A stretch of 25,666 nt of DNA. Source: a virus. Shown here in pieces: positions 1,797 to 20,686 of this stretch; the stretch's first letter is position 1; each line of letters begins with the position of its first letter. The stretch is from the IMG/VR virus record IMGVR_UViG_3300035682_000177, positions 1 to 25,666 of that record. One strand, 5' to 3'. The notes under the pieces were generated by a model. It saw only the letters and a program-made list of their open reading frames with translations, ran no database searches and was not told the origin of the DNA. The translations under genes and the position numbers were made by a program.

Positions 1797-1803
1797 CTAT
1801 ACT

Positions 1804-1812: not shown

Positions 1813-1828
1813 AAAAACATGATTTGAT

Positions 1829-2070
1829 TTATTTTAAAGCATTTTAAAAATTTTAAAGTAATTTTAAAGTAAATTAAGGCTTAACTCGTTGTTAATCAAT
1901 GCTTTAAAGTAATTTATTTTAAAATCCTGTTTTTTAAAATTATTTTTTCATTTTACTTTTTTTTATTTCATTTTAAACATTTTAAAAGAAAAGCTTTAAA
2001 AATGCCTTTACACTATCTTAAACGCAATAAATCACTTTAAAATTACTTTAAAATACTTTAAAAATTTTAA
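1829..2070. repeat. AT-rich inverted-repeat element 1 (TTTTAAAG array)
   Basis: This fills the 327-base gap between 1796 and 2124, which has no credible ORF. By hand count it contains about 14 copies of the palindromic core TTTAAA, mostly as TTTTAAAGTA on the left side and as its reverse complement on the right side. A 21-base block at 1850-1870 recurs as its exact reverse complement at 2034-2054, so the element is an imperfect inverted repeat with a T-rich centre. The block 1979-2004 (26 bases) is the exact reverse complement of 17052-17077 in the second element. It could be an origin, a protein-binding array, a recombination site or a structured RNA; the sequence does not decide. Confidence 0.8.
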
Positions 2071-2073
2071 AAT

Positions 2074-2100
2074 AAAAAAGGGTTGACTAAATGCCAACCC
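2074..2100 (-). terminator. Rho-independent terminator after tail tube gene
   Basis: On the minus strand GGGTTG (2100-2095) pairs with CAACCC (2085-2080) across a 9-nt loop and is followed by TTTTTT. It lies about 24 nt after the stop codon of the 2124-2651 gene and ends that unit before the AT-rich element. Confidence 0.85.
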
Positions 2101-2123
2101 CTAATTAACCATGAAAAAGATTT

Positions 2124-2651
2124 TTAAACTCCTACAGTTACAGTAAAACCTGCTGCTACTAAAGTGTTCATAATAAAGTTAGCCGGTACTGGTTCTTGAC
2201 CAACTAAAGTTAAAGTATAACCAGATAAATCACCGATTGCAGCACCAGTTACAATAGTACCAGATGTTACATCCATACCATGTTTTAAACCGCAATAGAA
2301 TAAGTTACCGTTATTATCTTCAACCACTACAGTAGGCTTACCGTAGCTTAATAATTTAATTTGCTTGTTATCCTTTACAGATAATTTCTTTAATGTAAGA
2401 TTTAAGGTCTGCTCAAAGTAGGTTGTTCCGTTTTCTCTACTTGAAGTAATAGTTTGATCAAATGATGAATTACCTTTCAAATCATATTTAAACGCTACAG
2501 GTGTACCCGTAACCGTTAATATAGCATCTGTGTCTGTAACATCGTATGTAACGCCCGTTACATCTCCATCATTGATTATATAAACTGCCTTTAAACCGCC
2601 ATTGCTTGTCTTACAAGGTTCCAGCCTTCCAGCCGCGATATCACATGACAT
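2124..2651 (-). CDS. Probable major tail tube protein
   Basis: 175 aa, beginning MSCDIAAGRLEPCKTSNGG. Features visible include a YDLKGNSSFDQTI segment, SRENGTTYFEQTLNLTLKKL near the middle and a DLSGYTLTLVGQEPVPANF end. I recognise this as a protein widespread beside the capsid gene in Bacteroidetes siphophages and usually annotated as a tail or structural protein. The beta-rich makeup, small size, own terminator and position after MCP fit the tail tube subunit that polymerises around the tape measure. It could instead be a head decoration protein. Terminators both before (2675-2706) and after it suggest its dosage is set separately from MCP. The start is ATG at 2651. Confidence 0.65.
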   Translation of the reverse strand: MSCDIAAGRLEPCKTSNGGLKAVYIINDGDVTGVTYDVTDTDAILTVTGTPVAFKYDLKGNSSFDQTITSSRENGTTYFEQTLNLTLKKLSVKDNKQIKLLSYGKPTVVVEDNNGNLFYCGLKHGMDVTSGTIVTGAAIGDLSGYTLTLVGQEPVPANFIMNTLVAAGFTVTVGV

Positions 2652-2674
2652 AGTTTCTTAATTTATTAATAGTG

Positions 2675-2706
2675 AAAAAATAAGCAGAGGAACTTAATCC
2701 CCTGCT
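2675..2706 (-). terminator. Terminator between MCP and tail tube genes
   Basis: On the minus strand AGCAGGGGA (2706-2698) pairs with TCCTCTGCT (2691-2683), nine pairs with one G-U, followed by TATTTTTT. It lies 9 nt after the MCP stop. No clear promoter is seen before 2651, so it may act as a partial terminator or as a 3'-end stabilising hairpin. Confidence 0.8.
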
Positions 2707-2714
2707 ATTATAAT

Positions 2715-3665
2715 TTAGTTAGCTGCGTTTACAATTCCGTAAGTTACGATATCCTCGATAACTCCGATTTGAACGCCTGCAGTCATTCTTAAAACTACTC
2801 TTACGTTTTGAGATCCGTCTAAGTCTGACATGTCGATAATTTTAGCCTCACCCATATCAGTCAACAAACCTGTTCCAAAGAAAAGATTTGATTTCTCAGC
2901 TGCAATAGCTGTGTTAGATGCTAATCCATTTGCTACGAATAACTTAACACCGTCAAACATTAAATCACCGAATTGTTGGTTATTTCCTTGAGCGTTAAAA
3001 CCTGCAGCACCTAAACCAGATGCACCAAATCCACCCAAAGAACGAACGTATGCTCTGTAAATGTTTTGAGAAATGTAGATATGTAAATCTTCTTTACCGT
3101 AAAGTGCTGCTGGTATTGCATCAACAATTTTACCTAATTCAGCTACTACGTTAGCAGCAGTTACAGTAGTTCCTAAAACCTCCTGAGCTGGTGGCAATAA
3201 TGGATCTAAAGAAGCGATTGTAGAAAATCCTGAGAATTCTCCAACATTAGCAGAAACGCCTTTCCAGATATTGCTTTCGTTTTTAGCTGCTACTTTAGCA
3301 ACAACATGAGCCATCAAGAAATCAGCAAAAGTTTTTGGTAAAACATCAAATGCTGAATAACCTTGTTGTGCTGATAACCAATCAGAATGAAAATCTTTCT
3401 TACATAATTGCAAGTTAACTTGAAACTCTTCTGGTTGTAAAACTCTTTCAGTTAAAGTGATAGTAGATGTTGCAGTGAAATCACAGCTTGCATCTTTTAA
3501 AATGTCATCAGATGACATTTTTTTCATCACTTCTTTGTACTTAATAGAAGGCTTAATTTCGATACCACCGTTATCGATAGTAGGCGCACTTAATAATGCT
3601 GCAGCAATGATTTTATCTTTAAATTCACCTGCATAGGTTGTAGTAATACTTGTAGTTGTTGGCAT
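2715..3665 (-). CDS. Major capsid protein
   Basis: 316 aa, beginning MPTTTSITTTYAGEF. It follows the protease and scaffold genes, as HK97-fold capsid proteins do. Residues roughly 60-110 (ATSTITLTERVLQPEEFQVN, then CKKDFHSDW) and 120-150 (DFLMAHVVAKVAAKNESNIW) resemble the major capsid family of Bacteroidetes phages. The C-terminal part (VRVVLRMTAGVQIGVIEDIVTYG) fits the axial domain. The leader is AATTAAAAAAAAATG, an A-rich signal typical of strongly translated Bacteroidetes genes. A hairpin terminator follows directly. The recognition is good for the class, though no structure comparison was possible. Confidence 0.85.
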   Translation of the reverse strand: MPTTTSITTTYAGEFKDKIIAAALLSAPTIDNGGIEIKPSIKYKEVMKKMSSDDILKDASCDFTATSTITLTERVLQPEEFQVNLQLCKKDFHSDWLSAQQGYSAFDVLPKTFADFLMAHVVAKVAAKNESNIWKGVSANVGEFSGFSTIASLDPLLPPAQEVLGTTVTAANVVAELGKIVDAIPAALYGKEDLHIYISQNIYRAYVRSLGGFGASGLGAAGFNAQGNNQQFGDLMFDGVKLFVANGLASNTAIAAEKSNLFFGTGLLTDMGEAKIIDMSDLDGSQNVRVVLRMTAGVQIGVIEDIVTYGIVNAAN

Positions 3666-3682
3666 TTTTTTTTAATTTTAGT

Positions 3683-4222
3683 TTAGTTAAACATTTTTGA
3701 ATAAACCGAATCCTTAATTGATTTAGTTTTGTTTTGTGAAAATCTGAATCCCTCTGCTTTTACTTCGCTTTCTGGATTAGTTACGATTGGAGAAGCACCT
3801 GCCTCCATTGATGATAAAGAAACTTTTAACGCTTCATTTTCCGCTTTTAAAGAAGCAAGTTCCGTTCTGAAGTTTTCAATCTCTGCAAAGAAACTTTCCT
3901 TTGAAACAGATTCAACAACCCTCTTTGGTTGTGTTGCCGCTTCTACTGGCATTTCTTCCTCAACTGCAACTTCTTCTTCTTTAGCTGCTAAAGACTTAAT
4001 TACGCCTTCAACTTCTACAACTAAAACGCTGCCATCTTCTAATTTGTACTCACCTACTGGCATTGGTATTGCGCCTTCAGGAGTTACGATTCCGATTGAA
4101 TAATCTGCTTCAAATTCCTCAGCTTCAACAATGGTTACTCCATCTTCAAGCTTCATTTGAGCAAGTTTTACATCCATCGAAAGCAATGCTCTGATTTTGT
4201 TTTCTACTCTTTTATAGTCCAT
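3683..4222 (-). CDS. Probable head scaffolding protein
   Basis: 179 aa, acidic. The N-terminal part (MDYKRVENKIRALLSM, then MKLEDGVTIVEAEEFEADY) is followed by a Glu/Ala/Val-rich linker (EEEVAVEEEMPVEAA, residues 80-97) and a predicted coiled coil at about 108-140 (FFAEIENFRTELASLKAENEAL), ending SVYSKMFN. Position immediately before MCP, acidity and coiled coil are the usual marks of a scaffold that is removed before DNA packaging, probably by the protease at 4397-4963. The family itself is recognised only in general terms. Confidence 0.7.
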   Translation of the reverse strand: MDYKRVENKIRALLSMDVKLAQMKLEDGVTIVEAEEFEADYSIGIVTPEGAIPMPVGEYKLEDGSVLVVEVEGVIKSLAAKEEEVAVEEEMPVEAATQPKRVVESVSKESFFAEIENFRTELASLKAENEALKVSLSSMEAGASPIVTNPESEVKAEGFRFSQNKTKSIKDSVYSKMFN

Positions 4223-4224
4223 AT

Positions 4225-4407
4225 TTAATTATTGTTTATTGTTCTTTCTGTGTTTGTGTTTATGATTACGCTTGTTCCTTGTTGTACTAATGAACCTATG
4301 CCTTGTTGTATCAATTCACCTTCGCAACATTCCTTAGAATACTTCTTGCCATCTTTACAAAGACATGCACGATTACCGCCTTTTGGGCTTGATGTTTTAT
4401 CCGCCAT
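4225..4407 (-). CDS. Small Cys-rich conserved head-region protein
   Basis: 60 aa with cysteines at 15, 17, 27 and 28 (RACLCKDGKKYSKECCEG) after an SPKGGNR start. Small proteins of this type occur between protease and scaffold in Bacteroidetes phages. The four cysteines could bind a metal, but there are too few residues between them for a standard zinc finger. Function is unknown. It overlaps the protease end by 11 nt and is followed 2 nt later by the scaffold start, so it is embedded in the head operon. Confidence 0.7.
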   Translation of the reverse strand: MADKTSSPKGGNRACLCKDGKKYSKECCEGELIQQGIGSLVQQGTSVIINTNTERTINNN

Positions 4408-4963
4408 TTTCTAAAACCTTAATGATTTGATTAATTAAATCTTCGTGTTTTTTTAATTCTAATTTATCCGCAAAAGATCCTTCTATTGAAAACCCTTTTA
4501 TCTCACCAGACTTTACACGATTCCAAACATCATCATTATCGACTTTCATTGAAATCATCCATGTTCCAACCGGTAAATTGAACTCGTACTTTCTTGACTT
4601 ATCAAATTGCTCATCTTCAATAATCCAAGACTCTACAACTGTCATTCCTTCCAATTTATCTTGGTGCTGAATTGTTGATTTGCTTTGATTACCTTTCTGC
4701 AAAAATAATTCCGATGCTTTTTTTATTGTATCCTTTGAGAAAAAGATATAGTATTCATCTTCTCCATCTCTACGATAAATCTGTTTGTTAGGAATCAAAG
4801 CCGCTCCCATTAGAATGCGTTTCTCTGAATCCACCTCCGCAAGCTTTACCTCATATTCCTTAGCTAATGCAATAAAATTGCTTTCCATCGCTGGATAATC
4901 AACCACAGAAACGGCATCAATGCCATCTATTTCGTTATCAATTACAAGCTCTATTATTCTCAT
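4397..4963 (-). CDS. XkdF-like prohead serine protease
   Basis: 188 aa from the ATG at 4963; an ATG at 4972 would add MNR. It resembles the phage putative serine protease XkdF family: RIIELVIDNEIDGIDAVSVVDYPAMESNF at the start, then GAALIPNKQIYRRDGEDEYYIFF, a HQDKLEGMTVVESWIIEDE segment (family His region) and GTWMISMKVDNDDVWNRVKSGEIKGFSIEG (family Ser region). It probably matures the scaffold and capsid. I prefer 4963 because this places TACGTTTAT at the same distance (7 nt) as in two other genes; the 4972 ATG lies inside that motif. Confidence 0.8.
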   Translation of the reverse strand: MRIIELVIDNEIDGIDAVSVVDYPAMESNFIALAKEYEVKLAEVDSEKRILMGAALIPNKQIYRRDGEDEYYIFFSKDTIKKASELFLQKGNQSKSTIQHQDKLEGMTVVESWIIEDEQFDKSRKYEFNLPVGTWMISMKVDNDDVWNRVKSGEIKGFSIEGSFADKLELKKHEDLINQIIKVLENGG

Positions 4964-4970
4964 TCTATTC

Positions 4971-4979
4971 ATAAACGTA
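4971..4979 (-). promoter_or_regulatory. TACGTTTAT leader motif, copy C
   Basis: TACGTTTAT on the minus strand, 7 nt before the ATG at 4963. It matches copies at 1804-1812 and 11805-11813 in sequence and spacing. It occupies the short gap between the tape measure stop (5003) and the protease start, where a new promoter for the head genes would be useful. Confidence 0.4.
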
Positions 4980-5002
4980 TTTATTTATCTTTGTTACATT
5001 TT

Positions 5003-6748
5003 CTAACCGCCTAATGTTGCAGTCCTTACAATATTTCTATCTAATGCTTGTTGTGTTGTTACTTGTGAACCTACTACATAAGCTTGAACTGGTGACTGAT
5101 TACCTAAGCCTTGTGCTATCTGATTTACTCCGCTTGTTCCTACTACGTTGAATTGTGGCGCTGCTGGTACTGATGCAGTAGCTGGCATAGACGGAGCAGA
5201 TCCACCACCACCACCACCAGGAACTTGAACAGAAAGTATTTTCTTTACGTTTGAAAAAGCAGCAGTAGCAACAGCTATCGTACTTGCTATTTTTACACCT
5301 GTTCCAAATGGTTCCGGATAAATATTTTTAGCCTTCCAAACCTCAGATATACCTAAGTAAGCGTTAATAGTTGCAGTTGCAATAGCTAAGGCTTTACCCT
5401 CTGCCGTTTGTTGACCTAACATATCAGCAAAAGTGCTTAATATATTAGCTGTCTTTGCTAAAATTTCTCGCTTACCTTCATATTCTAATCTCGCTATTTC
5501 CGCTTTTTTATCTGCTGCTTCTTTTTCATCTGCTACACCTTGATCTCTTTGTGCTTTTAAATCAGCGGACATTTTTGCAAAGTCATCAACAATTTTTTTA
5601 TCCGCTGCAGCCTTTGCTAAATTATCACGCTCTTTCTTTTCGGCATCTAATTGTTCTTGATTTTTTAAATCTTGATCTCTTATTTCTTGTTGAGTTTTAA
5701 ATCTTGCTTTCTCGATTGATGCCGCTTTTTCATCTGCTGCTTTCTTAGCCGCTGCTAACTTTTCATTAGCTGCTTTTATCTTATCAGCTGCTTCTTGATT
5801 TATTTTAATACGGTCATCTTCTCGTTGCTTATCAATAGCAGATAATTCCCTATTTAATCTTTTAGCTAATGCCGCAGTATTTGCTCCTTCTTCTTTTATT
5901 GCCTCCGCATAAGCATTTTTTGCGTCTATCTTTTGTTTAGTATATTTGTCAATTTGATCTCCGTGTTCTGCTAAAAACTTTTTATTAACACTTAAAGTTT
6001 TATCTGCTGCATCCTTCAAAGAATCTAAAGCACGCTCAGCTTCCGATGTTGCTCCAACAAAATCAGTAACTGATTCAACTATATTTCCGAAAAACTCACC
6101 AACTTGTGCAAGTCCTGGAATCAAATTTAAAACCGCCTTCTTTACTTTGTCAAAGTTTGCAATCAGCAAGCCTAACCCGACTACGATTGCACCGATACCG
6201 GTAGCCGCTAATGCTATTCTTAATAACTTTAATGCGCCAGTAGATGCACCGACTACCGTTGTGTAAGCCGCTTGTGATGCCGTTAAAACTTTTTGAACCG
6301 CTACATTACTTTTTAATACTGCACCTAATTGCTTAAATGAATCTACACTTTCGCCAATCGTTTGCAAACCTTGCGATAAAGCCATTGCAGACTGAACCTT
6401 TAACAATGTCTTTTCAACATTCTCAGATTCCGAACCGAACAAAGCCATCCCGCCCTGCACCGCTGCAAAACCACCGGCTACACCACTTAAAGAAGATGAT
6501 AATGCTTTAAACTTTGCATCAGGATTAAAGGCATCCGTTAACGCTTTAGCATCACCGATTGCATCCTTTAATATACCTGCCTTTTTAGCTGCATTAATAG
6601 CCTCCTTAGATGTTGCGCCAAACTTCTCAGATAATTGCGTAACATCATTTTGTGCCTCCCTTAATTGAGCCTTTAAGGATTTAACGCTTTCAGTTGTCGC
6701 ATTTAAATTATCAGAAATTTGTAAATTAACTATTTTAGTTTCAGCCAT
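5003..6748 (-). CDS. Tail tape measure protein
   Basis: 581 aa. It starts with a coiled coil (about 15-55, TESVKSLKAQLREAQNDVTQ), then a small-residue-rich segment, a hydrophobic stretch at about 175-205 (LRIALAATGIGAIVVGLGLLI), and a very long charged alpha/coiled-coil region (270-430) rich in Ala, Lys, Glu and Asp. The end has a poly-Gly patch (PGGGGGGSAPS) and a beta-like tail. This is the ordinary composition of a tape measure protein, which sets tail length and helps DNA entry. At 581 residues it implies a fairly short siphophage-type tail. The start is ATG at 6748, overlapped by the 49-aa ORF. It sits just before the head genes, not at the end of the tail module. Confidence 0.85.
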   Translation of the reverse strand: MAETKIVNLQISDNLNATTESVKSLKAQLREAQNDVTQLSEKFGATSKEAINAAKKAGILKDAIGDAKALTDAFNPDAKFKALSSSLSGVAGGFAAVQGGMALFGSESENVEKTLLKVQSAMALSQGLQTIGESVDSFKQLGAVLKSNVAVQKVLTASQAAYTTVVGASTGALKLLRIALAATGIGAIVVGLGLLIANFDKVKKAVLNLIPGLAQVGEFFGNIVESVTDFVGATSEAERALDSLKDAADKTLSVNKKFLAEHGDQIDKYTKQKIDAKNAYAEAIKEEGANTAALAKRLNRELSAIDKQREDDRIKINQEAADKIKAANEKLAAAKKAADEKAASIEKARFKTQQEIRDQDLKNQEQLDAEKKERDNLAKAAADKKIVDDFAKMSADLKAQRDQGVADEKEAADKKAEIARLEYEGKREILAKTANILSTFADMLGQQTAEGKALAIATATINAYLGISEVWKAKNIYPEPFGTGVKIASTIAVATAAFSNVKKILSVQVPGGGGGGSAPSMPATASVPAAPQFNVVGTSGVNQIAQGLGNQSPVQAYVVGSQVTTQQALDRNIVRTATLGG

Positions 6749-6879
6749 TGCCTTTTTATTTGTTTGAACCCGCCTTTAAATGTTGTTTGTAATTCGTATT
6801 TCCCTTTCGCTATTTCGATGTTTTCGCTCTGGTTGTAATGCTCGTTTAATGTTAGCATTAATAAAATGTTCTTTATCAT
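6730..6879 (-). CDS. Small ORF (49 aa) before tape measure
   Basis: ATG at 6879 overlaps the stop of the 6876-8840 gene as ATGA, and the ORF runs to TAG at 6730, 19 nt inside the tape measure gene. The protein begins MIKNILLMLTLNEHYNQSEN and contains KGKYELQTTFKGGFKQIKRQW. Without it there would be 127 unexplained bases in an otherwise closely packed operon. It is unrecognised; the start/stop overlaps at both ends support translation. Confidence 0.6.
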   Translation of the reverse strand: MIKNILLMLTLNEHYNQSENIEIAKGKYELQTTFKGGFKQIKRQWLKLK

Positions 6880-8840
6880 AATGTTCTGAAATCGTTTAGT
6901 AAATCAAAGTCAACCTCGCCAGTAGTTAAGTCCGTAGTAAATGAATTGATAAGGTATCTTTTACCCTGCATAATAACCCTATCGTTAAGTTGTAACGATG
7001 TTAATATACTAAGTGGTAGTTTTCCTTTAATCTTTATTTGCCTTGCCTTAGAAGTGAAGATATTAGCTAAATAGTTTTGATAATAATCAAAGTATAATGT
7101 ATCTGTAATTAGACTATTATCAAGTACCGATTGTTCTACTCCAAAATTTAAAGAGTAAATAGGTCCGCTGATATTTGTATCTGCACCAAAAGCGTTATAA
7201 TCCGTTAAATTAAAGTTAGAAGTTCCATCATTAAATTTAAAACCACTTGCACCAGCCGATTGCAAAACTCCGTAATCGTATAAAATTATAGGCTTAGGGA
7301 TGTAAGGTTTTAAATCAGTCTTTAATGTATATCCAACTTGTAACGTTGTGGATAAATTGCTAAACATTAAGTTTTCAAATGGTAGATTAACGCTGTATTC
7401 TTCGCCATCAGCATCAAAGTCTTGCGCTAAGTTTCCGTATTCTAACCCATTGTTAGAAAGGTAAGCTACTGAAATAAGATTTTCGCTTTTTTGATATTCA
7501 AAATTTACACGTTTATAAGATTTCACTCTGTCTATTGTTGCCGATTCTTTAAAAATATATTGCGTTAAATCAATAATATCCCCTGATTCGTACCAGCTTT
7601 CAATTTGTCTAATGTTGTATGTTGTTCCATCTGTTGAATAACACGTTAGATTAAACATCTTTAATATTCCGGAAAAGAAATCTTCAACCTTAATATCTGG
7701 CATTAAGTTAGAAACCGCAGATCCAGAATTAAAAGCCTTCGGTGTAGTAACAGATGCTAACAAAGATTTAGTTACAAAGCCGCCATCTGATATAGCAAAG
7801 TCAAAACTAAAGTCTATTGTTAAAGCGGAATCTATTTCTATATAAAATTGAAACGAGCTTGATCCATAAGGTGTTAAATCTATAGGAATATCTAAAGGTG
7901 GAATCTGAGAAACAAAAGGGATTGCTTCAACTTGAACGCCAAATGCATAAATATACAAAGTACCATTTACTCCGTTTGCGCTACACTCCAAAGTAATCTT
8001 TGATGTATCTATTATTTCAGTTCCAAATAAACCACCAAATACAAACGTATCCGTTAACAAATCAAAGTTTACATCATAACCGTTTGGGCTTGATTTAGCA
8101 TCAAAGTCTAATATATTACGAGCTGCCGGTAAAGTAAATACATCACCATTCTTTAGCCATAGATAAGCATTCTTAAAATTATCTGTATCTAAAAAATCGC
8201 CTTCAAAAGTTACATCATAAAAATCAGATATGCCTTTGAATACTTTGCTTAATCTTAATGCTGGAAATAACTCGGTGTAAACAATAGCATTAGCCGTTAC
8301 AGTAATATCGTTAACACTTGCATCCCCGTACTGCCATGGTCTTAATGAGCTGATAAGCGGAAATTTAATATCGCTTGTGGTTTGGGCGCTTACTCTATCT
8401 TTTACATAGGTTCCATTGTATATAAAATTGAATTCGCTATAATCAACATCCCTTAAAGATAAACCTCTAAACGTATCCTTTAACGAAACTAAATTACCAA
8501 AGAAAGTAATGGTATAGTTTTCTGGCTTACCGTTTTTCATCGAAGCAGATTCCAGCTGAATCTTGCCGTTACGAAAAGGAATTGTATCAAGTTCTATGTA
8601 TGCGTTTTTTCTTCTTCTTGCATCGTAACCATTAACTAAACTATTATCATACCAATGCGAAAAGATAGCGTTGTTATTCTTAGTTGCCGGAACAGTAAAC
8701 GACTGACTAAAATCAGTATAAATTTTACTTATATCCGCAATGTTTTGAATCGAAGATGTTACACTTATTTTTTCATCATTGAATAACTCAATACGTTTTG
8801 CAACCCCGTCAATCGAAATATAGATACCTACTGTTAACAT
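6876..8840 (-). CDS. Large tail protein (probable distal tail/baseplate)
   Basis: 654 aa, begins MLTVGIYISIDGVAKRIELF. The segment SSIQNIADISKIYTDFSQSFTVPATKNNNAIFSHW is typical of large tail proteins adjacent to the tape measure in Bacteroidetes phages. The rest is beta-rich, with FSGILKMFNLTCYSTDGTTYNIRQIESWY around 390-415. I infer a tail-tip or baseplate role from its size, beta content and place beside the tape measure; exact function is not known. The ATG at 8840 overlaps the previous stop (ATGTTAA). Confidence 0.65.
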   Translation of the reverse strand: MLTVGIYISIDGVAKRIELFNDEKISVTSSIQNIADISKIYTDFSQSFTVPATKNNNAIFSHWYDNSLVNGYDARRRKNAYIELDTIPFRNGKIQLESASMKNGKPENYTITFFGNLVSLKDTFRGLSLRDVDYSEFNFIYNGTYVKDRVSAQTTSDIKFPLISSLRPWQYGDASVNDITVTANAIVYTELFPALRLSKVFKGISDFYDVTFEGDFLDTDNFKNAYLWLKNGDVFTLPAARNILDFDAKSSPNGYDVNFDLLTDTFVFGGLFGTEIIDTSKITLECSANGVNGTLYIYAFGVQVEAIPFVSQIPPLDIPIDLTPYGSSSFQFYIEIDSALTIDFSFDFAISDGGFVTKSLLASVTTPKAFNSGSAVSNLMPDIKVEDFFSGILKMFNLTCYSTDGTTYNIRQIESWYESGDIIDLTQYIFKESATIDRVKSYKRVNFEYQKSENLISVAYLSNNGLEYGNLAQDFDADGEEYSVNLPFENLMFSNLSTTLQVGYTLKTDLKPYIPKPIILYDYGVLQSAGASGFKFNDGTSNFNLTDYNAFGADTNISGPIYSLNFGVEQSVLDNSLITDTLYFDYYQNYLANIFTSKARQIKIKGKLPLSILTSLQLNDRVIMQGKRYLINSFTTDLTTGEVDFDLLNDFRTL

Positions 8841-10449: not shown

Positions 10450-10450
10450 C

Positions 10451-10906: not shown

Positions 10907-10907
10907 T

Positions 10908-11063
10908 TTATCTACAATTTATTTGCATCCAATTTTGTGCAATCTTATAAGCATCCTTAAGCCTAAATATATCTTTATGGTTAACTATTTTTATATTGAC
11001 TTGTTGACCTGTCATGATGTGTATGTAACATTGTACATGTGCAACCATCTCATTTACTGTCAT
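10908..11063 (-). CDS. Small ORF (51 aa) after chaperone frameshift product
   Basis: ATG at 11063 gives MTVNEMVAHVQCYIHIMTGQ and ends INCR at TAA 10908. Its start overlaps the TGA (11062-11060) that ends the -1 frame of the tail chaperone, giving the ATGA arrangement used repeatedly in this genome, and its stop lies 1 nt before the next ATG. This packing strongly supports translation. The sequence is not recognised; an alpha/beta fold is likely. Confidence 0.65.
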   Translation of the reverse strand: MTVNEMVAHVQCYIHIMTGQQVNIKIVNHKDIFRLKDAYKIAQNWMQINCR

Positions 11064-11796
11064 TTCTTTTTAATCATTTTCATTTCCAAATCAACCTTTT
11101 GTTTCTCAAATGTCAAGTAGGTTAAAAACTTGTGAACTGGTAACTCTGTGACTTCATTAAATCGGAGAATGTTTCCCTGAGCTGCTCCATAGATAGAAGC
11201 GTACCATCCCCAGCGTTTTCCAAATTGTGCTTGTTCAGAATATTCGCCACCTCCGGATTCGCCGCTAAATAAGACATCGTACTGTTCACTAAGTCTTTGC
11301 CTAAATCCCAAAAAAAAACCATTGCGCCTAAAGCAACATCTAAAGGCATGTCCTTTAATACATCGGAATACTTATCTGATCCTTCGTACTTCTCAATCAG
11401 ATACCTATCTGAGAAACTTTTTGTAACCGGTCTAAATAATACTGCCATCGCTTGGTGCATCTTTTGCCAATCAGAAATGTAAGCATCTAAGTCTATAACC
11501 TCACCTGCTGACATATTATCAAGGTTAGGGATAAAGCCATAATCAACACCGTTTAACTTAAATTTATTAACCAGCTTATTCTTATCCGTAAACAAAGAAC
11601 CTATCTTTGCGCTTATCTCCTCAACATCTTTAAAAGACATTAGCATAACAATCTTTAGACTAACATCACAAAAGATTTGAATCATCTTGTGCTTAAGGAA
11701 ATCCTCTGTTTGCCCTTCAATACTTGATACCTTTAGAAAGGATTGGTATTGATGCAACTTGATTTCGTTTAAACTTGTTGGTATTGTAATTTTCAT
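11060..11796 (-). CDS. Tail assembly chaperone, long form via -1 frameshift
   Basis: The long product would join residues 1-162 of the 11796 ORF to 83 residues of the -1 frame (11311-11060), about 245 aa. The -1 part contains FGKRWGWYASIYGAAQGNIL, NEVTELPVHKFLTYLTFEKQK and a basic end, which looks like genuine protein and resembles the T-domain of tail chaperones. Slippage is possible on nine T (11318-11310) read GTT TTT TTT TGG, a T TTT TTT heptamer. The -1 frame has no ATG near its start and its TGA overlaps the next gene's ATG, so both the need and the benefit of frameshifting are seen. By analogy with lambda gpG/gpGT, the long form would bind the tape measure and recruit tube subunits. 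Confidence 0.75.
11122..11796 (-). CDS. Tail assembly chaperone, short form (0 frame)
   Basis: 224 aa, begins MKITIPTSLNEIKLHQYQSF. Mostly helical, with a central LFRPVTKSFSDRYLIEKYEG segment and LDVALGAMVFFWDLGKDLVN just at the slip site. After the slip site the 0 frame continues for another 62 residues (DLVNSTMSYLAANPEVANIL and so on) that also look like real protein, so about 190 bases are apparently used in two frames. Lambda gpG-like function is inferred from position before the tail genes and from the frameshift. The start has the TACGTTTAT leader 8 nt upstream. Confidence 0.75.
   Translation of the reverse strand: MKITIPTSLNEIKLHQYQSFLKVSSIEGQTEDFLKHKMIQIFCDVSLKIVMLMSFKDVEEISAKIGSLFTDKNKLVNKFKLNGVDYGFIPNLDNMSAGEVIDLDAYISDWQKMHQAMAVLFRPVTKSFSDRYLIEKYEGSDKYSDVLKDMPLDVALGAMVFFWDLGKDLVNSTMSYLAANPEVANILNKHNLENAGDGTLLSMEQLRETFSDLMKSQSYQFTSF
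11311..11317 (-). promoter_or_regulatory. Slippery heptamer for -1 frameshift
   Basis: T TTT TTT in the 0 frame of the chaperone gene (codons 160-162), within nine consecutive T and followed by GGGATTTAGG. It is a canonical X XXY YYZ site. I did not identify a convincing downstream pseudoknot by eye. The Gs after the run could also permit transcriptional slippage on T9. Confidence 0.75.
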
Positions 11797-11804
11797 GTTA
11801 TCTT

Positions 11805-11813
11805 ATAAACGTA
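11805..11813 (-). promoter_or_regulatory. TACGTTTAT leader motif, copy B
   Basis: TTTTTACGTTTATAAG on the minus strand, 8 nt before the ATG at 11796, in the 38-nt gap after the TerL stop. With copies at 1804-1812 and 4971-4979 it forms a set of three leaders, each at the start of a virion sub-operon. Confidence 0.4.
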
Positions 11814-11834
11814 AAAAGATGGTATTGTTTTTTT

Positions 11835-13067
11835 TTAATATACTGCGTACGTTCCTCGATGTGGATTGTCTAAATGGAATATCACATTGTACCTGATAGC
11901 ATCTATTAAGTGATTCCAATCATCAAGATAAAGCTTAGATTGCTTATTGATGTAAACATAATTATTAAACTCCTTCGCTATGTTAGAACTATCTGGATCA
12001 ACAATTATAGTATAATCTTGCATCCTTATAATCCCACTTTCAATAGTGCCTTTCTTAACTGCTTGTATATTTATACCGGCATGTTTTAAATCATCTATCA
12101 ATCGAGGTTCTGCACTATCTGCTATAATCAAATTACGTTGGCATTTATCCCGTAACATGATTGCCAAGATATGCGTCTTAATACCTCGTTCATAAATATG
12201 CTCCTTAACATAGATAATCTTTTTAGCCTTATCGATTGCTACCTCAGCAAGTGAATCTGGATCTATCGAGAATCCAAAATCTAACCCAAATGAAGTCTGC
12301 AATCCATCAGGGTTGAACTGTCCAAACTTCCAATTTGTAAACACAACACCCTCAGCTTTGTCTAACCAACCTCCAAGTATCTGATGCTCGTACTTCTTTG
12401 GATTGTTTAACCTGATCCTTTCAATTTCATCTAAGAAAGACTTATCTAAATTTTCTATGTTATCGTTGAAGGTAGTATGAATGTAGGTTGTGTTTCCTTT
12501 GATACCATTAAACCCTTCTTGAACTCCTTCTTGCTCAAAGAATCGTTTATAAATCCAATGTTCTTTCGTGGCTGGGTTAAGGATTAATATAATACGGTTC
12601 TGGATTCCCTTTTGTCTAATAGATAGATTTATCTTATCAAAGATTAACTCATCGTTTAGTTCTTCGGCTTCGTCTACAATCCAAGTTGTAACGCCTTGCA
12701 ATGACTTAAGGTTTGCAGTTTGGTCACCGCTTGATGTCTTTATGCCTCGAAATATTATCTCGCTTCCAGATGCTTTATTTTTAATCTCTGACTTTGTTAT
12801 ATCAAAATAGTCATGAGCATTTAGTAGGCTTATCTTCTCTTGAAATTCTGGAATAATAGACAAGTGTGCGCTTGTCATTGTCTGCCTGGTAAACAGTATT
12901 TTATGTCCTGCTTCGAATGAAAGTATTGATGCAAAGGTACCAACACCAAAAGACTTAGACGAACCACGCCCTCCAGTAATTACAAAGAATCTGGTATCAT
13001 TCTTTAACGCTTCGTACTTTCGGTTAAGTTCAATCATAATATAAATGCTGTCTTTCCATGCTGTCAT
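11835..13067 (-). CDS. terL: Terminase large subunit
   Basis: 410 aa ATPase-nuclease that drives DNA into the prohead. Walker A GGRGSSKS lies at 32-39, Walker B TWIVDEAEE around 128-136 with D132 and E133. RNase H-like nuclease acidic residues are visible as D263 (LDFGF), D317 (IIADSAEPR) and D389 (HLIDAIRY). Length and motifs are normal. The ATG at 13067 adds MTAWKDSIYI before MIELNRKYEAL; many relatives start at the latter (13037), so the true start is uncertain. It is preceded by a tRNA-like gene, not by the usual tight TerS overlap. Confidence 0.95.
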   Translation of the reverse strand: MTAWKDSIYIMIELNRKYEALKNDTRFFVITGGRGSSKSFGVGTFASILSFEAGHKILFTRQTMTSAHLSIIPEFQEKISLLNAHDYFDITKSEIKNKASGSEIIFRGIKTSSGDQTANLKSLQGVTTWIVDEAEELNDELIFDKINLSIRQKGIQNRIILILNPATKEHWIYKRFFEQEGVQEGFNGIKGNTTYIHTTFNDNIENLDKSFLDEIERIRLNNPKKYEHQILGGWLDKAEGVVFTNWKFGQFNPDGLQTSFGLDFGFSIDPDSLAEVAIDKAKKIIYVKEHIYERGIKTHILAIMLRDKCQRNLIIADSAEPRLIDDLKHAGINIQAVKKGTIESGIIRMQDYTIIVDPDSSNIAKEFNNYVYINKQSKLYLDDWNHLIDAIRYNVIFHLDNPHRGTYAVY

Positions 13068-13106
13068 ACTGTCCTATACATTAGGATACTTATCTCGACT
13101 TGCGAG

Positions 13107-13121
13107 GAGGAGTCAAACCTC
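13107..13121 (-). other. Orphan tRNA T-arm-like hairpin 2
   Basis: GAGG-TTTGACT-CCTC on the minus strand, a 4-bp stem with a 7-nt loop resembling a T-arm, though position 56 is T where C is expected. No matching acceptor or D-arm is seen. It may be a tRNA remnant or chance. Confidence 0.2.
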
Positions 13122-13140
13122 ATTTAGATTCCAATTCTCA

Positions 13141-13163
13141 GTAACCGAGCAGAATCGAACTGC
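13141..13163 (-). pseudogene. tRNA 3'-end remnant (T-arm plus acceptor strand)
   Basis: GCAG-TTCGATT-CTGC is a normal T-arm with a consensus TTCRANT loop, followed by CGGTTAC as a possible 3' acceptor strand. The matching 5' strand (GTAACCG) is absent from the minus strand upstream, and only about 6 nt separate it from the complete tRNA-like gene, so it can only be a 3' fragment. It may be a deleted second tRNA or a captured host tRNA end. Confidence 0.35.
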
Positions 13164-13168
13164 ATTAG

Positions 13169-13256
13169 TAGTCATGACAGGATTCGAACCTGTTAGGAGT
13201 TATTGACTATTACCTCCGCCGCTCACTCGGTGCGTCTACCATTCCGCCACCTGACT
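13169..13256 (-). tRNA. tRNA-Leu-like gene (anticodon arm irregular)
   Basis: 88 nt on the minus strand. Acceptor AGTCAGG pairs with CATGACT (six pairs, G6-A67 mismatch), discriminator A. The D-arm GCGGAATGGTAGACGC matches the Leu consensus closely. T-arm ACAGG-TTCGAAT-CCTGT is perfect. A long variable arm with GGAG/CTCC marks class II. The anticodon arm is poor: placing T33 correctly gives anticodon GAG (Leu) with three G-C pairs but mismatches at 27-43 and 31-39. No CCA is encoded. It begins 6 nt after the TerS stop codon. Leu is the best identity; it may be degenerate or need an unusual fold. Confidence 0.65.
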
Positions 13257-13262
13257 ATTGTA

Positions 13263-13526
13263 CTATTTTATCCTAAACACATCATTAAGATTAAATGTGT
13301 TGATGTCATGTGTGTTGTGTTGGTCTACTACTTGCTTAGGCATACCGTAATTATATTGGAAAAACAATTTAACCGCCCAATCCTTACCATCATTTAAAGC
13401 CGCCTCTAATGCTTCATAAGCTTTAGGTTCTAATGGTGATAATTTTTCAATTAAAGATTGCTCTTCCGCTTTGCTTTTACGACCTCCGTTTGTGCTATGA
13501 CCTCCGTTGTTTTTTCTTTTATCCAC
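13263..13526 (-). CDS. terS: Terminase small subunit
   Basis: 87 aa starting at GTG 13526 (no upstream ATG in frame). It begins MDKRKNNGGHSTNGGRKSKAEEQS, then LIEKLSPLEPKAYEALEAAL and KDWAVKLFFQYNYGMPKQVVDQ. This is the short TerS-like family that precedes TerL in Bacteroidetes phages: a basic N-terminus, a helical DNA-binding core and a KPKQ-type end. It would recognise the packaging site and regulate TerL. The sequence around the start codon coincides with a perfect DnaA-box consensus (13519-13527). Confidence 0.8.
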   Translation of the reverse strand: MDKRKNNGGHSTNGGRKSKAEEQSLIEKLSPLEPKAYEALEAALNDGKDWAVKLFFQYNYGMPKQVVDQHNTHDINTFNLNDVFRIK

Positions 13527-13546
13527 AATTAAAAAAAATTAATTAA

Positions 13547-13912
13547 TTAAATACTTGCATCATACACCCGTTTTAAATCAGATACATATTCTCTCCAACA
13601 TGAAGCGCAGTTAGATGATTCTAAGTTAATCTTAAACACGTTTAGATATATCTTAGATAAATCACGTTGCATCAAAGGTGATAGTATATTAACGTTATTT
13701 TCGTAAAATGATTTTAAATAATTTTTATCATCATCATTTAGACATTCTGGTTTCTTATAAGGAAAGATTTTGTTTAGCAATATTTTGCGTTCTTCACATC
13801 CGCAATCAATACCGGTCAAGTCTGATATGACATCAACTACTTTCTTTATTCCTGTGGCTTTGGTGACTGCTTCAATCGAATCCCCTAACCCTCGCTTTGT
13901 TCTTTTTGCCAT
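13547..13912 (-). CDS. Conserved phage protein of unknown function before TerS
   Basis: 121 aa. It begins MAKRTKRGLGDSIEAVTKATGIKKVVDVISD, then GIDCGCEERKILLNKIFPY with three cysteine-region residues, and ends near NCASCWREYVSDL with CxxC. The GLGDxIExVTKxTGIK and CGCEERK segments are familiar from Bacteroidetes phage genomes in just this place beside terminase, but no function is known. The CxC and CxxC could bind metal. It overlaps the sigma-like gene by 28 nt. Confidence 0.7.
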   Translation of the reverse strand: MAKRTKRGLGDSIEAVTKATGIKKVVDVISDLTGIDCGCEERKILLNKIFPYKKPECLNDDDKNYLKSFYENNVNILSPLMQRDLSKIYLNVFKINLESSNCASCWREYVSDLKRVYDASI

Positions 13913-14322
13913 TGTTTTAATTTATTTTTGCAGTTGGTTAATGTATTATAAACAGAACTAAATGTTATACCAAGTTCTTTTGATAATTGTCGCATTGACA
14001 TTTTGTTGTTAATGTAAGTAAGGAACATTTTCTTATCGTACCAATCCCATGTATCTATGTAATCAAAGTATAAGGATACATCATTAACAACCTCTATGTT
14101 TTCCGGTATGTTTAGGATTTGATCGTTTAGTTCTAACTTAATCACTTTTTTACGATGCAAATCCATTGTAAGAGATCGAAGTGTAAAATAGAAATAGGCT
14201 TCGTTTATTTCTTTACCATGTGTTTTTATGTAAGCTTCTTGCACGATGTCCTCAGCATAGGCAAACTCCCCGAACTTCTCGACTTGCTTAATCCAATGTA
14301 AATGCTTTTTATACATCTTCAT
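13885..14322 (-). CDS. ECF-like RNA polymerase sigma factor
   Basis: 145 aa. AEDIVQEAYIKTHG and YFYFTLRSLTMDLHRKKV (about 19-57) match the sigma region 2 pattern. An acidic linker follows, and KMSMRQLSKELGITFSSVYNTLTNCKNKLKQW (about 108-139) is a region 4 helix-turn-helix. It could direct host polymerase to the virion genes that follow, and is a candidate reader of the TACGTTTAT leaders, although that is inference. The start is ATG at 14322; an ATG two codons later is possible. It overlaps the 50-aa ORF by 14 nt. Confidence 0.75.
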   Translation of the reverse strand: MKMYKKHLHWIKQVEKFGEFAYAEDIVQEAYIKTHGKEINEAYFYFTLRSLTMDLHRKKVIKLELNDQILNIPENIEVVNDVSLYFDYIDTWDWYDKKMFLTYINNKMSMRQLSKELGITFSSVYNTLTNCKNKLKQWQKEQSEG

Positions 14323-14461
14323 TTTGATAATAAGGACAACCTATGCTAACTAATTGACCTTTAATTGCATCCATTACTTCGTCATAATCAGATTGATCTG
14401 ATAAAACTGTAATAGTTGTAATGCCATAAGCTTCTATTGTTATAACTATTTTGTCTTTCAT
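14309..14461 (-). CDS. Small ORF (50 aa) before sigma factor
   Basis: ATG 14461 to TAA 14309. It begins MKDKIVITIEAYGITTITVL and contains DQSDYDEVMDAIKGQLVSIG, a plausible small alpha-beta protein. It overlaps the sigma gene start by 14 nt, which suggests coupling. Unrecognised. Confidence 0.6.
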   Translation of the reverse strand: MKDKIVITIEAYGITTITVLSDQSDYDEVMDAIKGQLVSIGCPYYQNEDV

Positions 14462-14507
14462 AATTGTAAATGTATAAAATAATATTTTTTAATACATAAT
14501 TTAGTTT

Positions 14508-14744
14508 TTAACATTTATCTACCATAGCATTAAACCCAAGACTATTAAGTAAATCAATCATATATTGCTGTAAAGGTTTAACGGTGTCTGTTTTTTCTTT
14601 GCATTCAATAAACAAAGGTATTTCACCTGATTTAAGACATAACAAGTCAGGTACACCGTTCTTATTAGTCTTAATCAGATTAATCACAAACCAACCTAAA
14701 GCCTCGTATTTCTTAATCGTTTTCGTTTGGTGCTTACTTGCCAC
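14508..14744 (-). CDS. VRR-NUC domain nuclease
   Basis: 78 aa from a GTG at 14744. Catalytic pattern of the PD-(D/E)xK superfamily: G30-V-P-D33 (PDLLCL), then E47-C-K49 (FIECKEK), and Q59/Q60 in the following helix. This is the compact stand-alone VRR-NUC common in phages, linked to Holliday-junction or flap resolution. It overlaps the previous gene by 11 nt. No substrate can be assigned from sequence. Confidence 0.8.
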   Translation of the reverse strand: MASKHQTKTIKKYEALGWFVINLIKTNKNGVPDLLCLKSGEIPLFIECKEKTDTVKPLQQYMIDLLNSLGFNAMVDKC

Positions 14745-14964
14745 TTTTTAAACTTTTAATTCTAATTGTGCCTACTTGTTTGAGTTCTTTGGATTTAAAC
14801 CACATTCTATTATTGATATTTTTATTATTTAATAAAATACGGTGAGGCAAATTAGAATCTGATTTGTCAAATTTAATTTCAATTCCTGTTTTACTATTTA
14901 AAAAATCATAATATTCATTAGTTTTCATTACTTCAAAAACTCTAAATGTATCTCCTACTTTCAT
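14734..14964 (-). CDS. Hypothetical protein (76 aa)
   Basis: MKVGDTFRVFEVMKTNEYYDF start; likely a small beta protein with a basic end (TIRIKSLKSGK). No motif recognised. AT-richer than its neighbours. It lies in the accessory stretch between the helicase and the nuclease, overlapping the latter. Confidence 0.6.
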   Translation of the reverse strand: MKVGDTFRVFEVMKTNEYYDFLNSKTGIEIKFDKSDSNLPHRILLNNKNINNRMWFKSKELKQVGTIRIKSLKSGK

Positions 14965-14984
14965 GATTCTGGTTGATTAAAGGT

Positions 14985-15170
14985 TTAATTGTAATAATCT
15001 TTTGCGTTTTCTATACCAAAATAATGCAAAGCATCAACAATCTGCTCCTTTTCTAATTCTTTGGCTTGTTCAAGTAATCCATTAAATATTTGAGATGTTT
15101 GAATATTTTGAAATGGGATAGCATTATCTATTTGTTCCCATAACCATTCTACTGCTGTTAACTTCTTCAT
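14985..15170 (-). CDS. Small conserved phage protein (MKKLTAVEWL type)
   Basis: 61 aa, helical, begins MKKLTAVEWLWEQIDNAIPF with a charged QAKELEKEQIVDALHYFGIE end. Short proteins starting MKKLTAVEWL are frequent in Bacteroidetes phages and have no assigned role. Its ATG overlaps the stop of the 15167-15745 gene (ATGA), and both genes start with the same TATGAAGAAGTTAA sequence. Confidence 0.65.
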   Translation of the reverse strand: MKKLTAVEWLWEQIDNAIPFQNIQTSQIFNGLLEQAKELEKEQIVDALHYFGIENAKDYYN

Positions 15171-15745
15171 AGTCCTATTTGATTAATTGCTGTTTGTGTA
15201 AGACTTTTACCTCTACAATAGTCTGTATTTGCTTTTTTACATAATTCGCATCTACATTTATAATTACCGTATGAATATAGTGTTCCGTGTATTTGTTCTT
15301 TTTGTCTTTTTTCTTTGTTATGTGCTTCTTTACCTTTTTTAGAATTAGACATTTTTTCTTTGGTTTCCAAATAACTTCCTGTTTTTTCATAATGATAATT
15401 TATTAAAAATTCAATTGTTTTACCTTGAGTAATCAACTCTTTAATTTCAATCAAAGATAATAAATTATTATTAAATATACAAATTTCTTTTGCTTGTTGG
15501 TATTGTTTTTCAAATTCAATTTGAGCCACATCATCAAACGCTTTGTTTTGTGGATAGTCAAATTTTAAAACATACCCATTTTCATCACAAGGAACAAACA
15601 TCCAAAGTTCTAAAGGTTGTTTTATAAATTTAGCGTAAGACATTATTTTATTATACCTTGAAGCCCATTGATTAGTTAATGATTGAACTGATATTGTAAA
15701 ATCTTGCTCCAGAACAAAGTCTGTCATTGTGATTAACTTCTTCAT
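15167..15745 (-). CDS. Protein with C-terminal HGT/CRCxxC zinc-type motif
   Basis: 192 aa. The N-terminal 110 residues are unrecognised. After a helical, Lys-rich KEKMSNSKKGKEAHNKEKRQ stretch (about 131-150, similar to NUMOD3-type DNA-binding motifs of homing enzymes) comes HGTLYSYGNYKCRCELCKKA (about 153-172), a His/Cys motif shared by many phage proteins and likely to bind zinc and DNA. Its low G+C content, HEG-like features and repeated start sequence suggest an inserted gene. I do not see a full HNH catalytic motif. It overlaps the helicase stop as ATGA. Confidence 0.6.
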   Translation of the reverse strand: MKKLITMTDFVLEQDFTISVQSLTNQWASRYNKIMSYAKFIKQPLELWMFVPCDENGYVLKFDYPQNKAFDDVAQIEFEKQYQQAKEICIFNNNLLSLIEIKELITQGKTIEFLINYHYEKTGSYLETKEKMSNSKKGKEAHNKEKRQKEQIHGTLYSYGNYKCRCELCKKANTDYCRGKSLTQTAINQIGL

Positions 15746-16965
15746 AAATATTCTTGTTTAAAATGTGATAGTGTAAAATTCTTTTTGTTCATTACTGCCT
15801 TAAATATTTTATCTTCTATTCCTCCATTAGCAAATATAAAATAAATATCATTAGTTTTTCTATCCATTGTTGTAAGACGATCTCTTGACTGCCAATAAGA
15901 TGTTGCACTAAAATCAACATTCAAATATACAAGATAATCAGCAGCTTTCAAACTAATTCCTTCTCGACCTGCTATAATCTGCAAAGCTATGTTTTTATCT
16001 GTGGTGTTGAACTCTTCTAAATCAGTTGTTAACTTATCACCATAACATGACTTTAATAGATTTAATTCTTCTTTGAACTTATAAAAGATTGCGATCTTCT
16101 TACCCTTAAACTTATCAACAATGAATAGACCTTTTGAATTATCCATTATCATGCTATTACCTGATTCGAATTTAATTGTACCAGAATAAAGCTGGTGTAG
16201 TTTCTGCATCAACTTAACCGGTGTATCTGCAAGGATAACTTCACTACTACCTTGAACAACTAAATCATTACATAAACGTTTACATATTGAATGTGTTTGA
16301 TCTTGCATGTCACAATACAACACATGCTCATTTATAACGCTTGTAAAGCCAGCTAACTCTTGAGTGTATGTTATCATGTACTTACTAATGAAAGTGTCTA
16401 TAATCGTCTTATTTGCATCGGAGTAATCATTACACAATCCATAAGATACGTACTTTTGTTTTACATTAACAAAGTCCTTGCACCATTTATAGAAGTTACT
16501 ATACATTTTGAACGGTGAACGATTAGAAACCCAAAGCTGGTGATAGATTTGAGAATATGATTCTGGTGTTGGTGTACCGCTTAAGAATATAAACGGTTTA
16601 TCTGCAAAACGTTTCTTTAAATCCTTTGCCATCTTACCCGACTTAGGATAAGAACCTAAACGGTGTGCTTCATCCATAACTATACAATCAAAATCATTAT
16701 CTTTAATAGTGTGTAATGATTCATTATTGATAACAGTAAGATCAAAGGTATAACCAAAATCTTTATAGTCTGATTTAATATTACCGATAGCTTTTTTCTT
16801 TGTAAGAAATAGCACTTTATTATAATTATTCAATTTACATACCTCTAAAGCGGTTGAACTCTTACCTGTTCTCACTTGCATAGAAAGGTAAACTATACCT
16901 AAATTCTTTAATATTTGTGATGCTTTTATAGAATTGTCTACTTGATACCCTCGTAACTGTTTCAT
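15742..16965 (-). CDS. SNF2-family DNA helicase
   Basis: 407 aa from the ATG at 16965; a TTG six bases upstream is less likely. Q-like N-terminus LRGYQ (4-8), Walker A variant MQVRTGKSS (29-37), DEAH box MDEAH at 97-101, motif III SGTPTPES near 128, and C-terminal ALQIIAGREGISLKAADYLV with QSRDR (motif VI, arginine finger). This is a compact phage superfamily 2 helicase without extra domains. It may remodel DNA during replication or recombination; the substrate is not evident. It is directly downstream of AT-rich element 2. Confidence 0.85.
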   Translation of the reverse strand: MKQLRGYQVDNSIKASQILKNLGIVYLSMQVRTGKSSTALEVCKLNNYNKVLFLTKKKAIGNIKSDYKDFGYTFDLTVINNESLHTIKDNDFDCIVMDEAHRLGSYPKSGKMAKDLKKRFADKPFIFLSGTPTPESYSQIYHQLWVSNRSPFKMYSNFYKWCKDFVNVKQKYVSYGLCNDYSDANKTIIDTFISKYMITYTQELAGFTSVINEHVLYCDMQDQTHSICKRLCNDLVVQGSSEVILADTPVKLMQKLHQLYSGTIKFESGNSMIMDNSKGLFIVDKFKGKKIAIFYKFKEELNLLKSCYGDKLTTDLEEFNTTDKNIALQIIAGREGISLKAADYLVYLNVDFSATSYWQSRDRLTTMDRKTNDIYFIFANGGIEDKIFKAVMNKKNFTLSHFKQEYL

Positions 16966-16972
16966 AATCAAT

Positions 16973-17236
16973 GTTTTAAACGATTTTAAAGTATTTTAAA
17001 GCATTTTAAAGTATTTTTAAAGTAAATAGTGTCTTTAAAGTACTTTAAACCCATTTTTAAAGCTTTTCTTTTAAAATCTTTTTTTTAAAAATTATTTTTT
17101 AAAATTCTTTTTTTTATTCTTTTAAAAGATTTTAAAGTATTTCTTTTAAAACTCTTTAAAATCACGCTTGAAGTATTCGCAAACATCGTTTTTAGGTTTT
17201 AAAAGACTTTAAAATACTTTAAAATGCTTTAATAAA
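16973..17236. repeat. AT-rich inverted-repeat element 2 (TTTTAAAG array)
   Basis: This fills the gap between primase stop and helicase start. About 18 TTTAAA cores by hand count, as TTTTAAAGTA/GC units on the left and in reverse orientation on the right. The 22-base block 16996-17017 recurs as its exact reverse complement at 17211-17232. The 26-base block 17052-17077 is the exact reverse complement of 1979-2004 in element 1. A 16-base TAATCAATGYTTTAAA also occurs in both, in the same orientation (16965-16980 and 1893-1908). No ORF or promoter was recognised inside. Confidence 0.8.
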
Positions 17237-20365: not shown

Positions 20366-20686
20366 CTAACATCTTACCTTTTTTAAACAGTTCATAAAAT
20401 ATTTGTCTTTTATTTGCGTTAGTGCATCGTATTGGCGCAAGTTATAAATAATAGTCGAATGATCACGATTAAAAACGTGTCCTATCTCTTTTAAATTCAT
20501 TCGTGTATTTTTGCGAATCAAATAAATAGCTATTATTCGAGCCGTTACATATTCTTTTTCTCTGCATGTGCCTAAGATGTCTTTTAATCCCATTTTAAAT
20601 GCAATTCCGTTAATACATTCTTTAACACTAAACTCATTTCTTTTTGCTCCTATTAAAGGATCTGTATTTATAATTATTCCCAGCAT
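20366..20686 (-). CDS. Stand-alone DnaA domain IV (HTH) protein
   Basis: 106 aa. Residues 45-100 read as the DnaA C-terminal DNA-binding domain: ARIIAIYLIRKNTRMNLKEIGHVFNRDHSTIIYNL, with the signature RDHST at 74-78 that contacts the DnaA box in cellular DnaA. The AAA+ domain is absent. It could bind DnaA boxes in the phage or host origin, compete with host DnaA, or act as a repressor. It overlaps the coiled-coil gene by 13 nt and is the last gene of its unit. Confidence 0.85.
   Translation of the reverse strand: MLGIIINTDPLIGAKRNEFSVKECINGIAFKMGLKDILGTCREKEYVTARIIAIYLIRKNTRMNLKEIGHVFNRDHSTIIYNLRQYDALTQIKDKYFMNCLKKVRC

Follow-up and report, generated by a model that had tools for sequence, protein, structure and literature searches.

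A probable replication origin beside a DUF3987 primase-helicase gene, and an extra copy of it among the virion genes of an uncultivated phage

Why should a phage carry two AT-rich arrays of one design about 15 kb apart, and which protein reads them? The question is raised by the IMG/VR virus record IMGVR_UViG_3300035682_000177, which was analyzed whole (25,666 bases; hereafter the window) and is probably a fragment of a tailed-phage genome. Its elements A and B (Table 1) are arrays of a common word, TTTTAAAG, each gathered in four clusters. We argue that B is probably the origin of the DUF3987 protein encoded beside it, and that A is an extra copy of this element within the virion module.

Two elements of one design

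A and B are a distant pair with common anatomy. Of the 99 TTTAAA hexamers in the window, 32 start inside A or B. Three 10-bp-spaced TTTTAAA words (up to two mismatches) gave 11 matches, every one in A or B, and none in 100 shuffles. The inverted blocks that an earlier note had described within each element (1850-1870/2034-2054 and 16996-17017/17211-17232) are exact reverse complements, TAATCAATGYTTTAAA is present in the same orientation at 1893-1908 and 16965-16980, and the 26-bp block of A is the exact reverse complement of its partner in B. This block is the longest exact inverted match between the elements. None of 200 dinucleotide shuffles of both elements reached 26 bp (at most 20), which bears out the note's view that low complexity alone would not readily give such a match. 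When A is aligned with B, 99 of 113 word positions and 90 of 137 spacer positions are identical, although here, as in the word-spacer comparisons below, the alignment may favor words. The elements had also been said to occupy the only large gene-free gaps. Their gaps (327 bp for A, 268 bp for B) do have the highest AT content, though there are others of 273 bp (20998-21270) and 263 bp (23077-23339).

The array beside the DUF3987 gene and the helix that follows its word

Arrays at B's place are widespread among relatives. Viral sequences were scanned with the DUF3987 protein, and the best 80 of 131 loci were used. An array, called at a motif score of at least 48 (no array-less locus exceeded 41), lies directly downstream of the DUF3987 stop codon in 56 of the 80 sequences: the window and 55 of 79 relatives. 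The earlier note would have been doubted had related phages lacked arrays at the two loci; the B array is present in most scored relatives, whereas A is absent outside the closest sister records. The array word is phage-specific, with at least ten words (TTTAAA, GTGTAAAG, TGCGCA, TGGGTAA, TGTAACA and others). The layout is shared. In most of the 29 array-bearing relatives drawn (of 55; core words set by hand), some 230-270 bp comprise an outer array, a gap of about 45 bp, an inner array, an A/T-rich center, and then inner array, gap and outer array again; L024, L040 and L056 have fewer sites.

A second array of the same word was sought in 20 relatives' contigs (up to 40.7 kb), 19 of them end to end and G024 over 39,480 of 40,681 bases. 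None was found in the 15 contigs where the scan recovered the known array, most of which may be incomplete. G009 and G026 were uninformative, as the array beside DUF3987 itself was missed. G029, which has no array at B's place, carries a fair array (score 24) near the other contig end. Dense direct repeats unlike iterons were also seen: ATTAGCA in G003 near 33101 (the L005 contig) and CTACAGA in G018 near 20101 (the L040 contig).

The DUF3987 protein combines predicted primase, helicase and DNA-binding parts. Its Pfam DUF3987 (PF13148) match, at 2.6e-49 and 168.8 bits against a curated cut-off of 27, places it in that family, which Kazlauskas et al. predicted to be a helicase of mobile elements (PMC5862659, in excerpt). 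In an AlphaFold2 model built from 35 sequences (mean predicted local distance difference test, pLDDT, 73), the N-terminal domain is similar to the primase-polymerase of pRN1 ORF904 (Foldseek E 2.6e-6; Z 15.2 over 158 residues, root-mean-square deviation 2.6). Residues 327-711 resemble an MCM ATPase (Z 15.2 over 284 residues, root-mean-square deviation 5.2, 11% identity; Foldseek E only 1.7e-3 and above) and are taken as a predicted MCM-like helicase module. The C-terminal helices 712-722, 728-734 and 739-751 are modeled as a helix-turn-helix (HTH)-like fold (pLDDT 69-84 per block). A profile search of PDB sequences gave no match at E 0.01. Distant matches occur in 27 phage records; the one ranked first shares 28.9% identity over 49% of the query. 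Among the papers listed in literature searches, on DUF3987, replication and phage among others, no title or abstract opening describes these origins.

The array word follows the recognition helix and hardly follows the protein body. The covariation set comprised 47 phages, after removal of 9 of the 56 array-bearing sequences at 97% or higher whole-protein identity to a kept one; the removed set includes L003, whose TGCGCA-type word is unlike that of L002. Word finding used a mild prior for AGTGTAAAGT in the 47 phages and no prior for the held-out words described below. Word distance correlates with recognition-helix distance given the protein body (partial r 0.493; reached by 0 of 5000 permutations) and scarcely with the body (r 0.083), in statistics taken over the 47 phages rather than over independent helix changes on a tree. 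For the remaining HTH residues, the value is 0.255 given the body and drops to -0.016 after accounting for the helix. Among 248 nine-residue blocks, the best is the helix at 739, the top 11 all lie in residues 709-750, and the median is 0.003. Because the HTH-coding end of the gene adjoins the origin, synonymous third positions of the helix codons were checked as well; they give 0.040, and linkage alone therefore does not explain the covariation. Thus, the DUF3987 protein is the likely reader of the array word, and B is likely its origin.

Single residues of the helix relate to bases of the word. Within residues 700-752, 739 (0.41) and 740 (0.36) peak, followed by 716 (0.34) and 744 (0.27). 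Phages with R or K at 739 have a TG-containing word in 41 of 41 cases. With V or L at 739 the word lacks TG in 5 of 6, including L004, whose word is not resolved (an A-run with 4 sites); the sixth, L040, has TTGAACC, the G of which goes along with R740, and the count becomes 6 of 6 only when TTCAA words are exempted. All 10 phages with R740 have a GC-step word. All 37 phages without R740 have an "A-core" word, a class defined as having none of the listed GC steps, which takes in TGGGTAA of L006 and L015 (K740) and TGTCAA of L056 (Q740). These rules were derived from the same 47 phages that they summarize, except for a held-out check of residue 739. For this check, 37 of 100 later loci were chosen by eye as contigs outside the first 80; 31 were scored and 6 were incomplete. 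The rule was obeyed by all 13 clear arrays (11 R, 2 L), with fit judged by eye and the cut of 77 chosen after the scores were seen (next lower 72); among the 13, L302/L303 and L219/L225 are likely relatives, and identity to earlier proteins reaches 90%. The held-out L296 (K740) has a new word, TGTCGCA. Three pairs have different helices and words despite near-identical bodies (L011/L012 at 99%, L013/L021 at 97%, L006/L007 at 96%), and these look like cassette exchanges of helix plus origin.

In relatives' origins (e.g., L002, L010, L012, and L019), the gaps that separate outer from inner arrays contain a conserved 18-bp motif, AAGCCTTATAAACATTGA, in some cases as an inverted pair; in the window it is degenerate. 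It is exact on the plus strand in 9 of 48 elements, and shuffles never came closer than 4 mismatches to this motif, which was picked by eye. It contains TTATAAACA, which we take to be one base off the DnaA box TTATNCACA; therefore, a host protein may bind the gap motif.

Element A and its genomic setting

A is an extra, full-anatomy copy placed after a terminator-like hairpin in the virion module, and it retains all four word clusters. Hairpins like the one beside it (Table 1) also occur in relatives without A. In a set of 80 capsid-type loci (L081-L160), both genes neighboring A were identifiable in 62. L081 has an A identical to that of the window, and in both the gap is 327 bp, about 235 bp of it extra. 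L216 has A at the same place; L214, from the same sample, carries a B-type element, and the two element types probably coexist in this sister phage too. A is thus retained at one place in three records that are 4-9% apart over shared stretches. B and L214's B are identical at 146 of 157 word positions and 96 of 119 spacer positions (P 0.003). A itself aligns to L214's B with 112 bits and to its own B with 97 bits.

Window positions 1001-3000 show no differences from L081, though the two records differ at 177 alignment columns elsewhere in the shared 4.2 kb; the tract reflects either a recent exchange or an assembly effect. That A lies inside such a 2-kb tract between two diverged records is the one hint bearing on the suggestion that A and B are recombination or inversion sites flanking the virion module, of which no sign was otherwise seen.

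All assigned window genes lie on the minus strand: portal, capsid-like, tape measure and TerL, then the replication module. The host seems to be Bacteroidota. Of seven genome contigs with DUF3987 relatives, five are labeled Bacteroidota/Bacteroidetes or Psychroflexus, one Saprospirales and one Sphingomonadaceae. No DUF3987 relative lies within the DNA fetched for the 80 capsid-type loci, so in other phages each of the two modules, virion and replication, seems to be combined with different partners; against this, a capsid with 55-64% identity to that of the window is present in 4 of 32 DUF3987 records. A GIY-YIG endonuclease gene (19498-20226) adjoins the initiator gene, and in L214 a gene that is HNH-like by eye (5562-5963) adjoins the origin; endonuclease genes are thus near the origin in both. 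A tRNA-Leu (anticodon gag) lies at 13168-13256, between the TerL gene and a small gene at 13263-13526.

Table 1. Coordinates of the elements and of neighboring features in the window
Feature	Position	Strand	Remark
Element A, ~250-bp array of TTTTAAAG words	1829..2076	.	Extra origin-like copy in virion module
A word clusters, four	roughly 2036-2072, 1972-2003, 1905-1943, 1832-1868		Around A/T-rich center
Hairpin and T-run, terminator-like	2080..2101	-	After the 2124-2651 gene, read by eye; A inserted just behind
26-bp block, exact inverted partners	1979..2004 and 17052..17077	.	Inner array of each element
SNF2/ResIII-type helicase gene	15742..16971	-	Starts at edge of B opposite DUF3987 gene
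Element B, origin-like array of TTTTAAAG words	16973..17236	.	Directly downstream of DUF3987 gene
B word clusters, four	roughly 17197-17232, 17110-17160, 17035-17100, 16974-17020		
Predicted initiator, 752 aa: primase-polymerase domain, MCM-like AAA+ helicase (DUF3987), C-terminal HTH	17240..19498	-	
HTH recognition helix, residues 739-751	17246..17284	-	Covariation peak; helix in model, pLDDT 69-76
DnaA-domain-IV-like protein gene	20366..20686	-	

A proposed mechanism, its rivals and known systems

We consider it probable that B is an origin read by the DUF3987 HTH helix, and that this protein also binds A, a complete second copy, most likely as a second or late origin or as a fork barrier. 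From the anatomy, conservation, covariation and distribution of A observed by sequence comparison, and from one predicted structure, we infer binding, unwinding and a role for A as follows. The DUF3987 protein would bind the TTTTAAAG iterons via its recognition helix, and its helicase rings would form on the two halves of the two-fold symmetric arrays. It would then melt the A/T-rich center and prime with its own primase-polymerase domain, a one-protein scheme in which a self-loading initiator helicase would act on an origin that directly follows its gene. In the late virion module about 15 kb away, A would also be occupied by this protein and would most likely either start replication, as a second or late origin, or block forks through the bound initiator, as has been proposed for SPP1 oriR. 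Among the earlier proposals, paired origins or iterons is thus the best-supported reading, without the DnaA-domain-IV protein as general binder.

Several observations weigh against this scheme. By motif score, 24 of the 80 scored sequences have no array at B's place. Three of these were examined further: besides the fair array of G029 described above, G030 and G031 offer only weak candidates upstream of the gene (scores 10 and 12, where unrelated repeats reach 14). Further arrays may lie beyond the 25.7-kb fragment. The K740 words (TGGGTAA, TGTCGCA) and L056 (TGTCAA) break a simple base-6 rule, and residues 449-521 of the model are largely below pLDDT 50. The site of A is empty in 61 of the 62 comparable capsid loci (all but L081), with a median gap of 92 bp (12-111) and no array, and the family therefore does not need A. 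Between A and L216's A, changes affect 2 of 113 word and 11 of 162 spacer positions (P = 0.08), which is suggestive only. GC skew, an origin check proposed earlier, is negative throughout the window with no turn at A or B; it stays negative because the assigned genes are on one strand, and the check tells neither way.

Other explanations have been weighed against the origin reading. That A and B are functionless low-complexity DNA, alike by composition, is almost certainly wrong: their GC content is just 0.18-0.19, but shuffles reproduce neither the arrays nor the 26-mer, and relatives hold GC-containing words (TGCGCA, TGGGTAA) at the same place. DnaA domain IV type domains bind DNA, and the earlier note had looked to the DnaA-domain-IV-like protein, encoded nearby, as binder, in which case DUF3987 would be merely linked. 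In L001, another phage with a TTTAAA word, a homologue is encoded immediately upstream of DUF3987. Homologues occur in 15 of 81 sequences (the window and 14 of 80 loci) but in only 5 of the 55 array-bearing loci (L001, L002, L029, L044, and L077); 66 of the 80 loci lack one, including 50 of the 55, though many loci are short and truncation could explain absence. A viral scan confirmed no relatives, but it detects close relatives only and missed the L001 homologue. As the word covaries with the DUF3987 helix and the signal is near zero at synonymous sites, we reject this protein as general word binder and find the reading very improbable.

The two remaining rivals concern A, and both strike us as unlikely, if worth keeping in mind. 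A could act in cis as a helper or control element, binding the initiator and looping to B, like the second site of P4, crr, or a handcuffing or titration array, and not as a working origin. The common word and four clusters of A and B would suit such a site, and P4 alpha binds its origin repeats through a winged-helix domain (PMC4234260, in excerpt). However, the 15 informative contigs, incomplete as most may be, show no second same-word array, and a helper seems not to be generally needed. Alternatively, A may be neutral, a piece of an origin picked up as a by-product of recombination with a same-word phage and retained by chance. This would fit some 235 bp of extra DNA where 61 of 61 other relatives have an empty site, the slightly closer match of A to L214's B than to its own, and the tract identical to L081; against it, the four word clusters survive while spacers have diverged, and A has been kept in place across three records.

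A wider picture is plausible, although we hold it with a little less than even confidence. In a large family of uncultivated Bacteroidota phages, the one recognition helix of a primase-polymerase/MCM-like/HTH initiator and the adjacent origin would diversify together, partly by cassette swaps. The outcome would be a natural code that can be read off the sequence, in which R/K739 accompanies TG, R740 accompanies a GC step and, as judged by eye, residue 744 accompanies the far bases. In one branch the virion module would have acquired a complete second origin, an independent arrival at the oriL/oriR plan of SPP1. If true, this gain would be a natural test of what a late origin is for. DUF3987 domains gain a probable origin, a probable DNA-binding part and natural specificity variants, and from sequence alone the origins of uncultivated phages become findable and their likely compatibility groups sortable.

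Parts of this system have known counterparts. Like P4 alpha and pRN1 ORF904, which the primase-polymerase domain here resembles, the initiator is a single protein with primase, helicase and DNA-binding domains; unlike their superfamily 3 helicase modules, its helicase is DUF3987, and where the pRN1 origin is a stem-loop, the probable origin of the window is an iteron array. RepA of the Vibrio cholerae satellite PLE (phage-inducible chromosomal island-like element) is conserved except in its DNA-binding domain, which covaries with the origin, and modules are exchanged (PMC8263062, in excerpt). The same pattern, with apparent module swaps, is seen here, with at least ten words in place of the two origin types described there, a C-terminal HTH in place of a RepA_N domain, and a phage in place of a satellite.

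The closest parallel to the pair is Bacillus phage SPP1. Its two similar origins of repeats and AT-rich DNA lie 12-13 kb apart, oriL in the initiator gene and oriR among virion genes, and G38P binds both; it has been proposed that the initiator, once bound at oriR, stalls forks and sets off concatemer synthesis (PMC6316719 and PMC3485210, both in excerpt). A and B are likewise two distant sites of the same design, one in the virion module. In SPP1, the initiator, the loader and the DnaB-type helicase are separate proteins, whereas a primase-helicase is the likely binder in the window phage. For B, the nearest system is Rep of the Staphylococcus aureus pathogenicity islands (SaPI), with Cch2 of the staphylococcal cassette chromosome SCCmec: the C-terminal domain of the initiator helicase recognizes a short-iteron origin directly downstream of the gene (PMC7581432, in excerpt), the same position as B and the arrays of 55 of 79 relatives. 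Here, the helicase is DUF3987/MCM-like, the primase-polymerase is fused and the host is Bacteroidota. The distant second full copy and the readable relation between the helix and at least ten words are further differences from SaPI Rep-type origins.

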